From Terriglobia bacterium (GTDB lineage: Bacteria > Acidobacteriota > Terriglobia > UBA7540), in NCBI GenBank assembly GCA_020073545.1, contig JAIQEZ010000025.1, positions 1-45,778 of the forward strand: 45,778 bases of DNA, given 5' to 3'. The translations under genes and the position numbers were made by a program. The notes under the pieces were generated by a model that worked only from the letters and a program-made list of their open reading frames with translations, made no database searches and was not told where the DNA came from. Shown one piece after another: positions 2,021 through 17,426 of the stretch (position 1 is the stretch's first letter; the number at the start of each line of letters is the position of its first letter).

Positions 2021-2176
2021 GGCCTGTTGTCCTCCCCCCAACGAGCGCACCCTGGAACAGCTCAGGCATCTGAGGCATTGAATCCATGCTAATGGACGAG
2101 ATGCACGTCAGATACCAACCCGCAATCTCTGCCTCGCCCCTGGGCGTCTGAAAATAGAGAGGTTGTTCACCTCTGC

Positions 2177-2192
2177 TGCTCACATCTTGCCA
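2177..2192 (-). promoter_or_regulatory. possible sigma-54 promoter of the pilin gene
   Basis: On the minus strand, TGGCAAGATGTGAGCA has GG and GC dinucleotides exactly 10 bases apart, the -24/-12 spacing used by sigma-54. The inner TTGC is replaced by GAGC, so the match is partial. Pilin genes of several bacteria use sigma-54. The start would give a leader of about 145 bases. A palindrome, GACAA-AAA-TTGTC, lies just upstream at about 2221-2233. Between 2234 and 2398 nothing further is recognised. Confidence 0.25.
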
Positions 2193-8509: not shown

Positions 8510-8638
8510 GGGGGTCGGACCTTCAGGTCCGACAATAGCCAAGACTTCACAGGGGGCCTTTAGGCCCTGAAGCCTCCGGGGCTTGAAGCCCCCGACGGCG
8601 TGCGGCCCGATCCTGTCGGAGCTAAGGCTCCGACCCCC
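8510..8638. repeat. REPIN-like palindromic element with four hairpins
   Basis: The element is bounded by 10-bp terminal inverted repeats, GGGGGTCGGA (8510-8519) and TCCGACCCCC (8629-8638). Inside are four perfect hairpins: GTCGGACCT-TC-AGGTCCGAC (8514-8533), GGGCCT-TT-AGGCCC (8554-8567), GGGGCTT-G-AAGCCCC (8578-8592) and GTCGGAGC-TAAG-GCTCCGAC (8615-8634). No coding frame is supported. Paired REP sequences of this kind are normally mobilised by a RAYT transposase in trans; none is in the window. Confidence 0.65.
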
Positions 8639-8732
8639 CGCACAACTCCCTGAGGCGCAGCTTTTCAAACGAGGACACTACCTGATTATCCATCGCTTGC
8701 TTCGCTGCGAACCTTCGAGGAATAATGGGCCG

Positions 8733-11700
8733 ATGAGCTCAGCGCTCAAGCTGAACCCCGAACAACTGAAAGCCGTCGAGCATGGTGAAGGCCCGCTGCT
8801 GATCATTGCCGGGCCGGGCAGCGGCAAGACGCGAGTGATCACGCAACGGATCGTGCATCTGCTGGCGGGGTCGGGAGGGGGCGGAGAAGATGCGCCGGCG
8901 CTCATCGATTTCGTGGGCATGGAACTGCGCAGTGGGGAATTTTCTGGCGAGAGGATTCGGTCCGACACCATCCTGGCGCTGACGTTTACCGACAAGGCTG
9001 CGGCGGAAATGCAGCGCCGCGTGCGTGAGTCCCTGCCGGAGCTTGACTCCCCTCCGCACATTTCGACGTTCCACGCGTTTTGCTATGAGGCGCTGCGGAA
9101 GCGGCACTTCGAGCGCACGCTGCTCGACAAAGTGGATGTGTGGATTTTCCTGCGACGGCGGATGGAAAAACTCGAACTCGATTTCTACCAAAAACTCGCC
9201 GAGCCGGGCGCCTTCCTCCATTCGCTTAATGATTTCTTTTCCCGATGCCAGGATGAGTTGATCGAGCCCGTGGATTTTGAGCGTTACGCCGAGGCGCTGG
9301 AAAAGGAGTTCCTCCTCCTGGCGCCTTCCCTGGATGCCGCTGAACGCACGCTGCGGCAGCAGGAGATTCAGAAAAAGCAGGAACTCGCGCGGGTCTTCCG
9401 CAACAGCCGGAAGCTGATCGAGGAAGCCGGCTGCTCGAGCCTGGGCAGCTTGATTCCGGAGACAGTTCGTCTTTTCGATCATGAGCCTGAAGTGCTGGAG
9501 TACTATCGCCAGCGCTTTCGCTACGTGCTGGTGGATGAATTCCAGGATACCAACTACGCGCAGGTCGAGCTGCTGAAGCGGCTGGTCAAGGCTCCTTACA
9601 ACATCACCGCCGTCGGCGACGACGATCAAGCCATCTACCGGTTTCGAGGCGCCTCGCACGGCGCTTTCAAGATGTTTGACGAAGCCTTCCCCGGCCACGA
9701 GACGGTTTTTCTCGACACTAATTACCGTTCGACAAAACGCATCCTGCGCGCGGCGGACGTCGTGATCGCCAGAAACGATCGCTACGAGGCGAAGCCGAAA
9801 CTCCGCACGAGCCAGGACGCAGGCTGCCCCGTCTACCTCCTGCAATCTCCCGAGTACCTGAGCGAGGCCGTATGGATTGGGGAGGAGGTCACGCGCCTCA
9901 CGAAGCACGGCACGGCGCCGGGCGATATCGCCGTACTCTACCGCGCGCACGCCTATCGCGATCCGCTGGTGGAGCAATTTCGCCGCCGGAAGATTCCGTT
10001 CGCCATCCGTGGCCTCTCCATCCTTTCCACGATCATCCTGCGCGATCTGCTGGCGTATCTGAACATCATCCACTCGCCGCACGACAACATCAGCCTGACG
10101 CGGGTGCTGCTCGCGCCACGGTGGAGTTTCCCGGAGGAACTGGCGCTGGAAGTCCGCCAGCAAGCCTCGCGCGACCGCTGCTCGCTCTACGAGGTCTTGG
10201 AGTCATGGGAGGCGTCTGCGGCCGCGGACCCCCTGGAGCAGACCGGCTGGCCGGAACTGAAGCGCCTGCTCCGAGAGCTGCACAAGTACGCCGAGCACGC
10301 ACCGGTGACGGCGCTGCTCCATCGGCTGATCGGCCGGCTGGAGCTGGCCTTCCTGCCCCAGGATCCCGACGGCGCGTACGTTGAGGCTTTCCAGAAATTC
10401 CTGGAGGAATGGGAAGGCAAAAGCGACTCATGGAAGCTGCTGGAATTCAGGGAATACTTCCAATACTTCCTCGAGGCCGGCGGCTCGATTGAAGCGCCCG
10501 AACCTGCGAACGCCGCGGACGCTGTGCAGATGATGACCGTGCACGCCGCCAAGGGCCTGGAATTTCCCGTGGTGTTTATCCTCAGTGTCGCGCCGCGGCG
10601 CTTTCCGCACAGCGAGCAGAAAGCGGTCATCGAATTCCCCGAGGCATTGCGCAAAGGCCCGCAGCCGCCCGCCAACATTCATGAACAGGAGGAGCGGCGG
10701 CTGTTTTACGTGGCGCTGACGCGCGCCAAGGAGCGGCTGTATATTTCGAGCGTTACGAAGCCGGGAAAGAAAACATCGGCTTTCATCGACGATCTGCTGC
10801 CGAACCCCGCCGTGGCGGCTCGCGACCTCGAGCGCATTCAGGTTCCCGAGGTGCCGGCGGAAGCGACAGGTGCGCCACCTGCGCAGCCTGCGCCGCGCGA
10901 GCCTCCCGCCGCAAGCAGGTTACAGGGTAGCTTGTTCGGCGATGAGCCGAGCGCGCCCGGAGTCTATCCGCCCATTGCCGCGTGGGCGAGCCGCACGCCG
11001 GCCATCGTGGCGGGGGAGAAACTTCGGCTCAGCGCCTCGGCCATCGGAACGTACGAAGACTGTCCACAGAAATTCAAGTTCAGCCACTACCTGAAGATTC
11101 CGGCGGGACCGCAGCCGGCGCTGACTTTCGGCAACATCATGCACCAGTGCGTGCGCCGGTACTTTGAGCTGCGCAGGCAGGGCCCGGTGAAATTCGAACC
11201 ACTCCAGGCCCACTTCGAGCAAATCTGGAAAAGTGCGGGCTTTCAGGATCAATACCAGGAGCAGGCATACAAAAAGGCTGGGCTCGAGCAACTGCGCACT
11301 TTCGTGAAGAACCACGAAACCAGCACGACGCTTCCACTCGGCATGGAGGTGCACTTCGCGCTCGACTTGGGCGACGTGGTGCTGGAAGGGCGGGTCGACC
11401 AGATCAATCCACTTCCCGATCACGCCGTGGAGCTGGTGGATTACAAGACGGGCCGGCCGCCCTCGCAGAAGGACGCTGACAAAAGCCTTCAGCTCTCCGT
11501 GTACGCACTGGCAGCACGCGACCAGATGCAACTGAATCCGGCGCGGCTCACGTTCTACAGCTTGACCCATAACGAGCCCGTCTGCAGCGTGCGGACGCCC
11601 AAGGATCTGGATGCGGTGATCAGAGAGATCCGCGAAGTGGCCGCGCAAATCCGGCAACAACTGTTTCCACCCAGACCCGGCTTTGTGTGCAAGTACTGCA

Positions 11701-11741
11701 ACTACGTGATGATCTGCCCGGCGCACGAAGAGACCTTCTAG
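8733..11741 (+). CDS. UvrD/Rep-family DNA helicase fused to a PD-(D/E)XK Fe-S nuclease
   Basis: This 1002-residue protein is a superfamily 1A helicase. Walker A GPGSGKTR lies near residues 27-34, motif Ia is [12 protein letters not shown], motif II is VDEFQDTN, motif III is [13 protein letters not shown], motif V is [13 protein letters not shown] and motif VI is [14 protein letters not shown]. After a Pro-rich linker comes a RecB/AddB-type nuclease: [35 protein letters not shown] (Asp903, Lys905) and QLSVYAL. Cys777, 986, 989 and 995 have the Cas4/AddB arrangement that binds a 4Fe-4S cluster. It probably unwinds and resects DNA ends for recombination repair. The start at 8733 has GAGG 12 bases upstream. 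rmuC follows 46 bases later in the same direction. Confidence 0.93.
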
Positions 11742-13493: not shown

Positions 13494-13526
13494 AAAAAAC
13501 CTCGGGGGTGCATCGCTGCACCCCCG
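13494..13526 (-). terminator. rho-independent terminator of the micro-transcript
   Basis: A perfect 10-bp stem, CGGGGGTGCA...TGCACCCCCG, with a 4-base loop occupies 13503-13526. On the minus strand it is followed by a T6 run (13499-13494). This is the clearest intrinsic terminator in the window and lies 30 bases beyond the stop of the 11-codon frame. Confidence 0.8.
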
Positions 13527-13555
13527 AATGTCCCTTTCCAATTTCCGAAAGAGGC

Positions 13556-13591
13556 TTACCTCTTTTTCTTGGCTTTCTTCTTCGCTGCCAT
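13556..13591 (-). CDS. candidate lysine-rich micropeptide (11 residues)
   Basis: The frame reads MAAKKKAKKKR and stops at TAA (13558-13556). It starts 6 bases after a strong GAGGAG Shine-Dalgarno, and a hairpin, CGCCAGC-AAC-GCTGGCG, lies just upstream. A consensus promoter (13657-13685) and an intrinsic terminator (13494-13526) bound the unit, which would be transcribed as about 155 bases. Such a basic peptide could bind nucleic acid or a ribosome, but no family is recognised. Alternatively the transcript acts as a small RNA and the frame is incidental. In the rest of 13294-13948 nothing else is recognised. Confidence 0.5.
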   Translation of the reverse strand: MAAKKKAKKKR

Positions 13592-13656
13592 TCTATTCTC
13601 CTCACTTCCTGAATTCTCGCGCCAGCGTTGCTGGCGGAGCGCGTATACAATCATCA

Positions 13657-13685
13657 TGTATAGATTCACCGAATTATCTTGTCAA
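13657..13685 (-). promoter_or_regulatory. consensus sigma-70 promoter of the micro-transcript
   Basis: On the minus strand TTGACA (13685-13680) and TATACA (13662-13657) are separated by exactly 17 bases, the best sigma-70 match seen in the window. Transcription would begin near 13650 and run toward the terminator at 13494. Confidence 0.75.
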
Positions 13686-13948
13686 GAGGAAAGTGATTGG
13701 TGACGGCGAAAAAGTGAGGCATGCGAAAATTGTAGCGATGACCGCACGCGAGGTCGCAGAGGACGTTCGGGCGGCGTGGAGAGCGGAGAAAGGTGTCGCA
13801 AGGCACGACGCGCGCGGGTTCGGGACTTCTTTGGGCGGTCACAGGACTAGGACGGCGGCCTGCAAGGCGCAATCGAAGCGCAGGGCCTGACGCGAATCCT
13901 TCCGATCGCATCCAACACAGAGGGGACGAGGGCGCCCCAAGGATGATG

Positions 13949-14965
13949 ATGCACACCCCACACAAATCACCAGGACCTCGACCGTTCACTATGCGACACA
14001 TCACCTGCTCACTCTGCATTCTGTTGTCGGCCGCACCTTTCGCCCGCGCGCAGGAGAAGCAACAACTTCCTGCCCCCGGCGAGACGCTGAAAGTTACCAC
14101 GGCAGTCGTGAACGTTTACGCGGTGGTGAAGCAGAAGAACGGGAGGTTGGTTCCTAACCTCAACAAAGACGACTTCCTCCTCGAAGAGGACAAGCAGCCG
14201 CAGGTCATCCGTTATTTTGCCCGCGAGACCGACACTCCGCTGACGATGGGCATCCTGGTGGACACCAGTCCCAGCCAGGGGCGCGTGCTGGAGGTGGAGA
14301 AAGAAGAGGCTAAGGCGTTTCTTCGGCAAGTCCTGCGCCCCAAGGATCTCGCCTCTGTGCTTCACTTCGATGTGCAGGTGGAACTCCTGCAGGATTTCAC
14401 GGCGGACCTCCGCCTGCTCGATAAGGCAATCGATGAGAATGTGATCAATGGCGGAGGGGTCGGCCCCACGCCGGGACCTTTTCCCACCAGCGACACGGGC
14501 GGGGCGACGCACCTTTACGACGGGATTTATCTGTCGTCGCGTGAACTGCTCAAGAACGAAATCGGCCGCAAAGTTCTTATCCTGCTGACGGATGGCGAAG
14601 ACCAGGGCAGCAAGATGAAACTCGAGCAGGCGCTCGAGGCGGCGCAGCAATCCGACATCATCATTTATTCCGTCGCCATCATCGACCGTTCGTTCTATTT
14701 CGGGCACACCATGGGATTCAGCGGCGACTCGGCGCTGAGGAAGCTCTCAGAGGATACCGGCGGCCGGGTAATTGAAGTCAATCGTGTCAAAGACACCGGC
14801 GCCGCGTTCGAGCAAATCGCCAACGAACTCCGCACGCAGTACCTGCTCGGCTATACGCCCACCAACACCAAGCTGGACGGAGCCTATCGGAGAATTCAGG
14901 TCAAGGTCCGACAGGGCGATTACAAAGTCCAGACACGCCGTGGTTATTATGCACCGGAAGGATAG
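13949..14965 (+). CDS. secreted VWA-domain protein (acidobacterial VWFA-related family)
   Basis: The 338-residue protein has a Sec signal ending ILLSAAPFARAQ. A domain opens VNVYAVVKQKNGRLVPNLNKDDFLLEEDKQPQ (quoted in part: KDDFLLEEDKQ), and a von Willebrand A fold follows with the MIDAS motif DTSPS and the strand LLTDGEDQGS. It ends EQIANELRTQYLLGY and VQTRRGYYAPEG, as is typical of VWFA-related proteins expanded in Acidobacteriota. The fold binds Mg2+ and mediates protein contacts; the partner is unknown. Three adjacent ATGs (13943, 13946, 13949) and one at 13991 are possible starts; AAGG at 13939-13942 favours 13949. It is convergent with a related VWA gene 72 bases away. Confidence 0.9.
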   Translation: MHTPHKSPGPRPFTMRHITCSLCILLSAAPFARAQEKQQLPAPGETLKVTTAVVNVYAVVKQKNGRLVPNLNKDDFLLEEDKQPQVIRYFARETDTPLTMGILVDTSPSQGRVLEVEKEEAKAFLRQVLRPKDLASVLHFDVQVELLQDFTADLRLLDKAIDENVINGGGVGPTPGPFPTSDTGGATHLYDGIYLSSRELLKNEIGRKVLILLTDGEDQGSKMKLEQALEAAQQSDIIIYSVAIIDRSFYFGHTMGFSGDSALRKLSEDTGGRVIEVNRVKDTGAAFEQIANELRTQYLLGYTPTNTKLDGAYRRIQVKVRQGDYKVQTRRGYYAPEG

Positions 14966-15037: not shown

Positions 15038-15988
15038 CTACTGCGAGGGTGCGAAGTAACCCGCCTTGGCGCGGACGCGCAGGGTCTTTTCCCGAGGCCG
15101 AATTGAGATGTTGCGGAAGGTTCCGTCGTGCGCGGCGTTGGTGGAGACGTAAGCCAGGCTGTACTGGCTGCGCAGCTCGCGTGCGATCTCCTGGAAATTC
15201 ATCGCCAGGTCGCTCGCTTCGAAGGGAAAGAAAGCGCGCCCGCCGGTTTCTTCCGCCAACCGCCGCAGCACCTTATCGCCGCGAGCCTCCGTGCCGCTGC
15301 GGTTCGTGCTGATCGTGAAGATCGTCACCTCCGCACGCTGCGCCATCGCCAACGCTTCCTCGCGCGTGTGTTCGCTCTGATTGTCCTGGCCGTCGCTGAT
15401 GACGATCATCACGCGGCGCAGGTAAGGCTCGGGTGGCGGGAAGAAGAGCATCTTCTCTTTGCAGGAGAAGAAAATCGCATCGTAGAGACTGGTGACGCCG
15501 CCCGCTTGCAGGTCGCGAATGGCATTGGCGAGTTTCTCCGTGTTGTCGGTGTAGTCCTGAATCAGTTGCGGCTGCACATCGAACCCCACCACGAACGCCA
15601 TGTCCTTGCCCCTGCGGATCGTCGTGTTGAGGAAATCGACGGCGGCTTCCTGCTCAAAGCGCAGGCGCTCGCGGATGCTGTTGCTGGTGTCGATCAGGAT
15701 GGCGATGCGGAGGGGCAAGTCTGATTCGCGGCTGAAATAGCGGACCGTTTGCGGCTTGGCGTCTTCGAAGACATTGAAGTCGTCCTTGGTCATATGGATG
15801 ACCAGGCGATTCTTCTTGTCGGTCACGGTCATCAGCACGTTGACCAGCTCGACGCGAACTCGGATGGTCTGAGAACTGGAGGGGGGTTGCTGCGCGGCCG
15901 GAGGCGCGCTGGGCTTGACCTCTTGCGCCACCAGCCACCCCGGTAGGGCGCAAAGCAAAAACACAATCGTGAGAACCCACTTGGTCAT
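15038..15988 (-). CDS. secreted VWA-domain protein, second copy
   Basis: This 316-residue protein has a Sec signal (MTKWVLTIVFLLCALPGWLVAQ). The same architecture as the preceding VWA gene follows: VELVNVLMTVTDKKNRLVIH, KDDFNVFEDAKPQTVRYFS, MIDAS DTSNS, VISDGQDNQS and LRRLAEETGGRAFFPFE, with the ending EIARELRSQYSLAY and RAKAGYFAPSQ. The start at 15988 has GGAG 7 bases upstream; an upstream frame extension lacks support. It is a divergent paralogue of the gene at 13949, transcribed toward it. The role is presumably at the cell surface or in the periplasm, with an unknown ligand. Confidence 0.9.
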   Translation of the reverse strand: MTKWVLTIVFLLCALPGWLVAQEVKPSAPPAAQQPPSSSQTIRVRVELVNVLMTVTDKKNRLVIHMTKDDFNVFEDAKPQTVRYFSRESDLPLRIAILIDTSNSIRERLRFEQEAAVDFLNTTIRRGKDMAFVVGFDVQPQLIQDYTDNTEKLANAIRDLQAGGVTSLYDAIFFSCKEKMLFFPPPEPYLRRVMIVISDGQDNQSEHTREEALAMAQRAEVTIFTISTNRSGTEARGDKVLRRLAEETGGRAFFPFEASDLAMNFQEIARELRSQYSLAYVSTNAAHDGTFRNISIRPREKTLRVRAKAGYFAPSQ

Positions 15989-16136
15989 TGGATGACTCCG
16001 CCTCGAGCCAAGAATTATAGGAGGCGCTCGGAGGACCGTCAATGAATACCGCTGAGCTCGGGCACACGGACGCGCGCCGAAAGTTGAACTCCTCCCTGCC
16101 TCGTGTCTTACCCCTCCGGCGCCACCGCAGGCCCGC

Positions 16137-17426
16137 TCAGTTGGAAGCTGCGTCGCGAGCAGCCGGTTGCCTCTCCGCACGCCTCTTGCCGGCGAGACGA
16201 TTCTCGAGCCGGCGCGGCCAACCCAGGCGCACCGTCACCTCGCCGCCTTCGAACCTGTAATCGGCGCAGGTGGCGCCTTCCAACCCCATGCGCACTAGGG
16301 CCTCGATGTCGAGCCCGACCTCCGCCCCGTCGAGTTCCTGGGGGCTCGCGAAAATCGCAGGAGCGCGTGGTAGGAAGCGCGGACAACAATCTTCGAACGG
16401 CTCGCAAGAAATCTTGTAGGTCCCAATCTGCCGCGCCAGCCGAAGGATTTCTGCTTTGTCGTCGCCGGCGAGCGGCCGATAGACGGGTAGGTCAAGCCCA
16501 TGATCGATGGCCGCGAGGTTGTGCAGCGTCTGTGAGGCAACCTGCGAGACGCTGTCGCCCGTGACGAGGCCCCGGGCGTGCTCGGCGCGCGCAATCTCCC
16601 GCGCGATGCGCGCCATCATGCGGCGATAGAGCAACACGCGGTAGCTCTCGTGCGCGCCCGTCACGATCTGTCGCTGTACGGCGTCGAAAGGAATCAAATA
16701 CAGGCGCGACGTGAACTGATAGGGCGTGAGCGTGCGGACCAGCTCCTCCGCCACGCCGCGCGAAGAATTGCACGACGGGGAGGGGTTGCCGAAGAAATGC
16801 GCGAAGGTGACGTGGCACCCCCGGCGCATCATCTTATACGCGGCCACGGCGGAATCGAACCCGCCGGAAAGCAGCGCCACCAGGCGCCCGCTGGTGACAG
16901 CGGGCAGGCCACCGGCGCCCTCCACGCGGTCGGCGTAGAGGAACGCCCTCCCCGGAACGATCTCAACCTGACAGGTCACCTCGGGCTCGTCGAGCTTGAC
17001 GCGCACGCTTGCGTCGCGGGCACGCAGATGTTCCAGCACGGCGCGGCCCAGCTCGCGCTCCAGCTCCATGGAATTCATACCGTAGGCCGAGTCCGCGATC
17101 TTGGCGCGCACGGCGAAATTGCGAGGGTTTTTCTCCGCCATCATCTCGCACGCCGCCGGGCCGAGCGCGGCGAGCGGGCTGGGTACTTCGCGGGCCGGGG
17201 CAATGTAGGCGAGACCGAAAACCCGACGCAGGCGCGCGACGATCCGGGAAAGGGCGGCTTCGTCGCCGGGTGTGAGGACGAGACGCTCGGCGATGCTCTC
17301 AAGCGACTCCACTGGCAGGTCGGCCACACTCTGCCGGATGGCGGCGCGCAGTCGGCTGAGAAAGTAATTCTTGTTTCCGCCTTTCAGCCAGATCTCGTGG
17401 TAGTGAAGGATGAGGACTCGCTTCAT
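16137..17426 (-). CDS. thiI: tRNA 4-thiouridine synthase ThiI (without rhodanese domain)
   Basis: The 429-residue product has an N-terminal ferredoxin-like region starting RVLILHYHEIWLKGGNKNYF, a THUMP domain to about 165, and a PP-loop ATPase domain with SGGFDSAVAAY at residues 187-197. GLVTGDSVSQVASQTLHNL and KISCEPFEDCCPRF follow. It adenylates U8 of tRNA for sulfur transfer and can also supply sulfur for thiamine. The C-terminal rhodanese domain of enterobacterial ThiI is absent, as in many bacteria, so sulfur must come from a separate desulfurase. The start at 17426 lacks a strong Shine-Dalgarno. Confidence 0.93.
   Translation of the reverse strand: MKRVLILHYHEIWLKGGNKNYFLSRLRAAIRQSVADLPVESLESIAERLVLTPGDEAALSRIVARLRRVFGLAYIAPAREVPSPLAALGPAACEMMAEKNPRNFAVRAKIADSAYGMNSMELERELGRAVLEHLRARDASVRVKLDEPEVTCQVEIVPGRAFLYADRVEGAGGLPAVTSGRLVALLSGGFDSAVAAYKMMRRGCHVTFAHFFGNPSPSCNSSRGVAEELVRTLTPYQFTSRLYLIPFDAVQRQIVTGAHESYRVLLYRRMMARIAREIARAEHARGLVTGDSVSQVASQTLHNLAAIDHGLDLPVYRPLAGDDKAEILRLARQIGTYKISCEPFEDCCPRFLPRAPAIFASPQELDGAEVGLDIEALVRMGLEGATCADYRFEGGEVTVRLGWPRRLENRLAGKRRAERQPAARDAASN

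Follow-up and report, generated by a model that had tools for sequence, protein, structure and literature searches.

Organization of the Micro-Gene and Its Surroundings

The window, i.e., the whole stretch of 45,778 nucleotides analyzed here, carries on its minus strand, at positions 13685-13494, an 11-codon micro-gene, the parts of which can all be read directly from the sequence. The -35 hexamer TTGACA (13680-13685, in the context CTTGACAAG) is separated by a 17-nt spacer from the -10 hexamer TATACA (13657-13662, in the context TATACATG). A near-invariant ACGCGCT stands 5' of the leader hairpin CGCCAGC-AAC-GCTGGCG (13620-13636), a helix recognized by folding and covariation, and its stem is lengthened by CUC/GAG pairs in the predicted fold. 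The ribosome binding site GAGGAG (13598-13603) lies 6 nt from the ATG at 13591, and the open reading frame (13556-13591) reads MAAKKKAKKKR, i.e., 11 codons followed by TAA (13558-13556). The stop codon is itself enclosed in a hairpin, AAAGAGG-UAAG-CCUCUUU (13548-13565), and the unit is closed by an intrinsic terminator (13494-13526) found by sequence, fold, terminator scan and covariation, which consists of a 10-bp GC-rich stem (arms 13526-13517 and 13512-13503), a GCGA loop that is of the GNRA type in most relatives, then AGG and a run of six T (13499-13494). In the terminator scan it is the strongest of 13, and the predicted fold of the 161-nt micro-gene RNA has an energy of -55.8 kcal/mol (z = -3.7 vs. 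shuffles). The promoter, leader hairpin, GAGGAG, frame, TAA and stem with T6 had been listed in a first-pass annotation of this DNA, and each of them occurs on the minus strand where that annotation placed it; the stop-codon hairpin was not on its list. The promoter scan left the TATACA promoter unlisted, its rule demanding a T at position 6, and promoter-like sites are expected by chance at 1.3 per 6 kb; the promoter is nevertheless accepted because TTGACAAG and TATACATG hardly vary across the aligned loci of the family. More generally, it is conservation that gives the micro-gene its significance, a single scan alone being insufficient.

According to Pfam, the micro-gene faces two convergent neighbors on the plus strand, namely an RmuC gene (PF02646, 11779-13293), which is syntenic in relatives, and beyond it the gene of a UvrD-type helicase with a PD-(D/E)XK nuclease domain (8583-11741). 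On the other side, the gene of a VWA-domain protein (PF00092, 13793-14965, plus strand) is divergent and recurs in relatives. No sense-strand gene lies downstream of the micro-gene in the window or in the syntenic relatives. The VWA-domain protein gene at 13793-14965 (+) and another at 15038-16180 (-) are convergent, similar in size and side by side, and VWA-like pairs recur in relatives. An ARAGORN tRNA with a two-base anticodon at 16840-16932 (-), within a large open frame (16137-17426), is probably spurious.

Conservation in the Source Family

With the 201-nt element as the query, matches were obtained in 35 of the 37 genomes of the source family (E <= 7.3e-5), these being Acidobacteria subdivision 13/Terriglobia MAGs; one further family genome has the terminator end alone, at a contig end. 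Across the 35 aligned loci, hardly any variation is seen in the promoter boxes, ACGCGCTCCG, the leader stem, GAGGAGAAT-AGA-ATG and the terminator stem, in contrast to the DNA 5' of the promoter and to most of the 3' flank. The encoded peptides extend from MPKKKKKKR (9 aa) up to MAAKKKAKPKAKAKATPKAKAKKKR (25 aa), the length of the frame varying by whole codons alone and always in frame, and the residues after the start codon are 60% K, 27% A, 7.5% R and 4% P. Related genomes thus keep the unit from promoter to terminator as well as its K-rich codons, and the proposal of a complete micro-gene with a Lys-rich frame, made from the window alone, is supported by the persistence of this unit across the family.

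Several MAG contigs (loci L057, L064, L077, L058, L076, and L081) end within or near the element, and in one genome (G019) this is where both C62 and C82 terminate; either the assembly broke at the hairpins or, as may also be the case, there are multiple near-identical copies. An exact-pattern scan of named genomes also gave many matches in unrelated genomes, probably by chance.

Selection on the Frame and on the RNA

The number of differences per codon pair at codon positions 1, 2 and 3 is 0.078, 0.000 and 0.246 for the first five codons after ATG, and 0.055, 0.068 and 0.329 for the last four codons. Such a near-constant second position together with a variable third position is the signature of a translated frame. 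Regarding the RNA, 97% of the helix cells are paired, and the helix covariation score is 0.152, compared with 0.090 for shuffled and <=0.046 for slid partners, although this score was computed on related sequences and is therefore not a probability. The energy of the stop-codon hairpin averages -5.27 kcal/mol over the 35 relatives, four of which lack it, and shuffling of the 3' flanks brings this mean to -1.86 +/- 0.25 kcal/mol. Judging from these comparisons, the RNA of the micro-gene is also under selection, besides the frame. Over long distances, the most conserved part is the peptide and not the RNA.

Distribution Beyond the Family

Neighbor clustering places the micro-gene at one fixed place, kept throughout this class of soil bacteria, with the UvrD-type and RmuC genes on one side and the VWA gene on the other. 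The UvrD-type neighbor is found again at 36 loci, which belong to several families of the class, and the loci that it marks in other families encode MATKKKAKKKKKH, MKKSATKKAPKKKAAKKKKR and similar peptides. These loci are probably orthologous, though their leader and terminator sequences differ, because the same neighbor marks them too. In these other families, the sequences of leader and terminator have changed while the promoter, 5' hairpin, ribosome site, K-rich frame and terminator are kept.

A covariance model trained on the family element, which includes the K codons as well as the terminator and leaves the -35 box outside as an independent feature, gave matches in 84 of 299 class genomes (E <= 0.01) and in 20 genomes of a phylum sample of 199, 13 of these 20 being outside the class; all such counts of spread are lower bounds, and biased in kind, because the model comes from one family and includes these codons and the terminator, features towards which distant matches are skewed. 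On inspection, nearly all matches proved to be free-standing K-rich frames of 11-26 aa with a ribosome site before and a terminator after them. A terminator is present within about 100 nt at 67 of the 68 loci that are more distant or paralogous. At 55 of them, TTGAC and a -10-like hexamer stand at promoter spacing, which the model for the most part does not cover, and at 42 the leader fold reaches z < -1.5; T and H also occur in the peptides of more distant relatives. At two loci in some other Acidobacteriota (L279 and L280), the end of another lysine-rich frame is found just upstream of the matched gene, which suggests tandem copies.

Free-standing relatives, e.g., MATKKKAKKKKKH and MATKKAAKKAPKKAAKKTAKKKK, occur in other Acidobacteriota and in Bdellovibrionota, with rare cases in Myxococcota. 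A set of 28 mixed genomes of other phyla gave one match, in a Bdellovibrionales MAG, where a genuine-looking micro-gene encodes MATKKKAAKKKVAKKKTAKKKKK; matches were then obtained in 13 of 40 genomes comprising this MAG and its relatives and in 4 of 77 genomes of the phylum of Corallococcus, a K-rich frame being present at 14 of the 16 loci newly listed from these two groups. The plasmids searched gave no match.

A Second Copy in the Source Genome

The window's genome contains a second locus, G000:C121:18714-18862 (-), hereafter L088, which encodes MAAKKAKKKKR. Here and in the related loci, leader, -10 region (TACTACATA; TACTAGATA at L088 itself) and terminator are all unlike those of the first locus, and the frame alone is common to both. 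It is located near LemA-like and ThrS-like genes, named from their sequences and not by a family scan. The second locus and its relatives have the tract UUUCCUCCUUUCCCCAGGCCCGC 3' of the stop codon. The post-stop tract UUUCCUCCUUUCCCC is strongly conserved in L078, L079, L084, L085, L088-L091, L093, and L246, resembles the 3' end of 16S rRNA (anti-Shine-Dalgarno) and is complementary to the micro-gene's own ribosome site; sequestration of the ribosome site by the pyrimidine tract of the second locus is strongly predicted in only 5 of 17 transcripts. Two matches to the Acido-Lenti-1 RNA (RF01687), at L088:1948-1994 (-) and 2139-2186 (+), lie on opposite strands about 145 nt apart. This intergenic RNA is a neighbor of the second micro-gene only and matches neither micro-gene.

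Relation to Known Systems

When the longest members were compared with Pfam, NCBIfam and PHROGs, scans that have low power for queries of 20-26 aa, no family was retrieved, and no chain of the PDB sequences was matched at E <= 1 by the peptide, a very short query. Rfam covariance models gave no match in the window above the gathering score, the best match being chrB-a (15.3 bits vs. 43.9 needed). The earlier impression that no known family is involved holds across these five collections, and no description was found in the open-access literature on the peptide sequences and on lysine-rich micropeptides in these phyla.

In composition, the micropeptide has its closest counterparts in the H1-like proteins, i.e., chlamydial Hc2 and Pseudomonas AlgP, and in the lysine-rich tails of HU, with which it has in common a K/A/P-rich low complexity; the spacing of A, P and T also resembles that of H1 tails. 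The length of Hc2 is reported to vary by small K-rich units (PMC2848022). The micropeptide likewise proved to vary unit-wise in length and to be rich in lysine, alanine and proline, but whereas Hc2 has 165-237 aa, the micropeptide is the product of a stand-alone gene, with 9-29 aa and no other domain. The HU proteins of the window's genome, of its relatives and of the Bdellovibrionales MAG are without a lysine-rich tail of their own. Another comparison is with bTHX, bL37 and bS22, which are tiny, basic, lineage-restricted and easily missed by gene callers. The micropeptide shares these traits, but they have a fixed length and ribosome position, whereas it keeps its composition only. Both bL37 and bS22 were named in ribosome structures of other phyla (PMC5876184; PMC6133939; PMC10618245). 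H1-like proteins and tiny ribosomal proteins are already known, while a single-gene unit whose whole product is a lysine-rich tail appears to be new.

Possible Function of the Micropeptide

The best explanation, to which a probability of about 0.5 can be assigned, is a stand-alone micro-gene encoding a polycationic micropeptide that would bind nucleic acid by charge. A sigma-70-type promoter would drive a transcript of about 155 nt, presumably with strong transcription, the mRNA being probably stabilized by the 5' stem-loop, and the strong ribosome site would allow efficient translation of the 11-codon frame, with the terminator immediately after it. The product would be an abundant polycation, comparable to the lysine-rich tail of histone H1 or of some HU proteins but existing on its own, and its putative targets would be nucleoid DNA and/or structured RNA. 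That binding should occur by charge is expected because it is the composition (K with A, P or T and a basic C-end), and not the sequence, that is conserved, and nucleic acid as the partner is supported by the H1-tail-like spacing of A, P and T and by the HU proteins read here, with no lysine-rich tail of their own. We infer that the peptide would bind nucleic acid or the ribosome. Against the best explanation it must be said that composition alone cannot tell DNA, rRNA, polyphosphate and membrane partners apart, and that, within the family, the leader (ACGCGCT...) and the stop-codon hairpin are conserved beyond the need of a simple mRNA.

Somewhat more tentatively, it can be hypothesized that the micro-gene represents an overlooked gene class in several phyla, the sole product of which, a lysine-rich polycation of 9-30 residues, would be the equivalent of an encoded polyamine or of an H1 tail acting in trans; it would come from strong transcription units of its own and would tune the electrostatics of the nucleoid or ribosome. 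Single-gene transcription units of 9-13 codons are hardly annotated anywhere, and the combination of a class-wide fixed place with a composition found in several phyla makes this a directly testable case for the minimum functional size of a gene. An abundant encoded polycation, if this is what the peptide is, would be a missing component of nucleoid or ribosome biology in Acidobacteriota and Bdellovibrionota. Proteome and transposon studies of these phyla have left out a probable gene.

Rather unlikely, yet to be weighed seriously, is a lineage-specific extra ribosomal micro-protein, which would fill an rRNA cavity in the manner of bTHX, bL37 and bS22. Its size, its charge and what may be a high expression fit, but a length of 9 to about 29 aa with composition alone being kept is at odds with the fixed contacts of ribosomal proteins, as is the presence of two differently built copies within one genome; the lack of a PDB sequence match also speaks against it, a weak test with so short a query. 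An rRNA-type promoter was considered as a clue to ribosome function and found uninformative, since the regions before 16S in three genomes have ordinary TTGAC boxes or none and no special likeness to the micro-gene promoter.

An equally small chance is given to a dual-function or RNA-level regulator, i.e., a small RNA of ~155 nt in which the frame would be secondary or would time the ribosome near the stop-codon hairpin. The near-invariance of the ACGCGCTCCG leader motif in the family, the stop-codon hairpin and the highly conserved stem and loop of the terminator are all consistent with it, but the RNA sequence is replaced across families and at the second locus while the K-rich frame stays, and the codon-position pattern and the Rfam result do not favor it either. 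The first-pass annotation had left the choice between a peptide and an RNA with a secondary frame; the former is favored by codon-level conservation and by a frame that outlasts the sequences of leader and terminator, and a function of the RNA only is disfavored. A peptide product is most likely because the peptide, and not the RNA, is best conserved over long distances.

For a polycationic peptide as the preferred product, a role as counter-ion of polyphosphate or another non-nucleic polyanion is improbable. One study reports that the histone H1-like AlgP affects the spacing of polyphosphate granules in Pseudomonas (PMC9239181), but no polyphosphate genes are among the recurrent neighbors named. 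A lysine attenuator leader peptide that controls a downstream gene, as trp and his leaders do, can be ruled out almost entirely: a terminator after a short frame rich in one residue, here with several lysine codons in a row, is indeed the layout of amino-acid attenuators, but no same-strand gene lies downstream, the next genes being convergent in the window and in syntenic relatives, and leader and terminator form separate helices in fold and consensus, with no anti-terminator or other alternative fold seen. Finally, a chance assembly of signals, of which single consensus matches do arise randomly at the rate of promoter-like sites given above, is refuted by the conservation of the unit in 35 of the 37 family genomes and by its class-level synteny.
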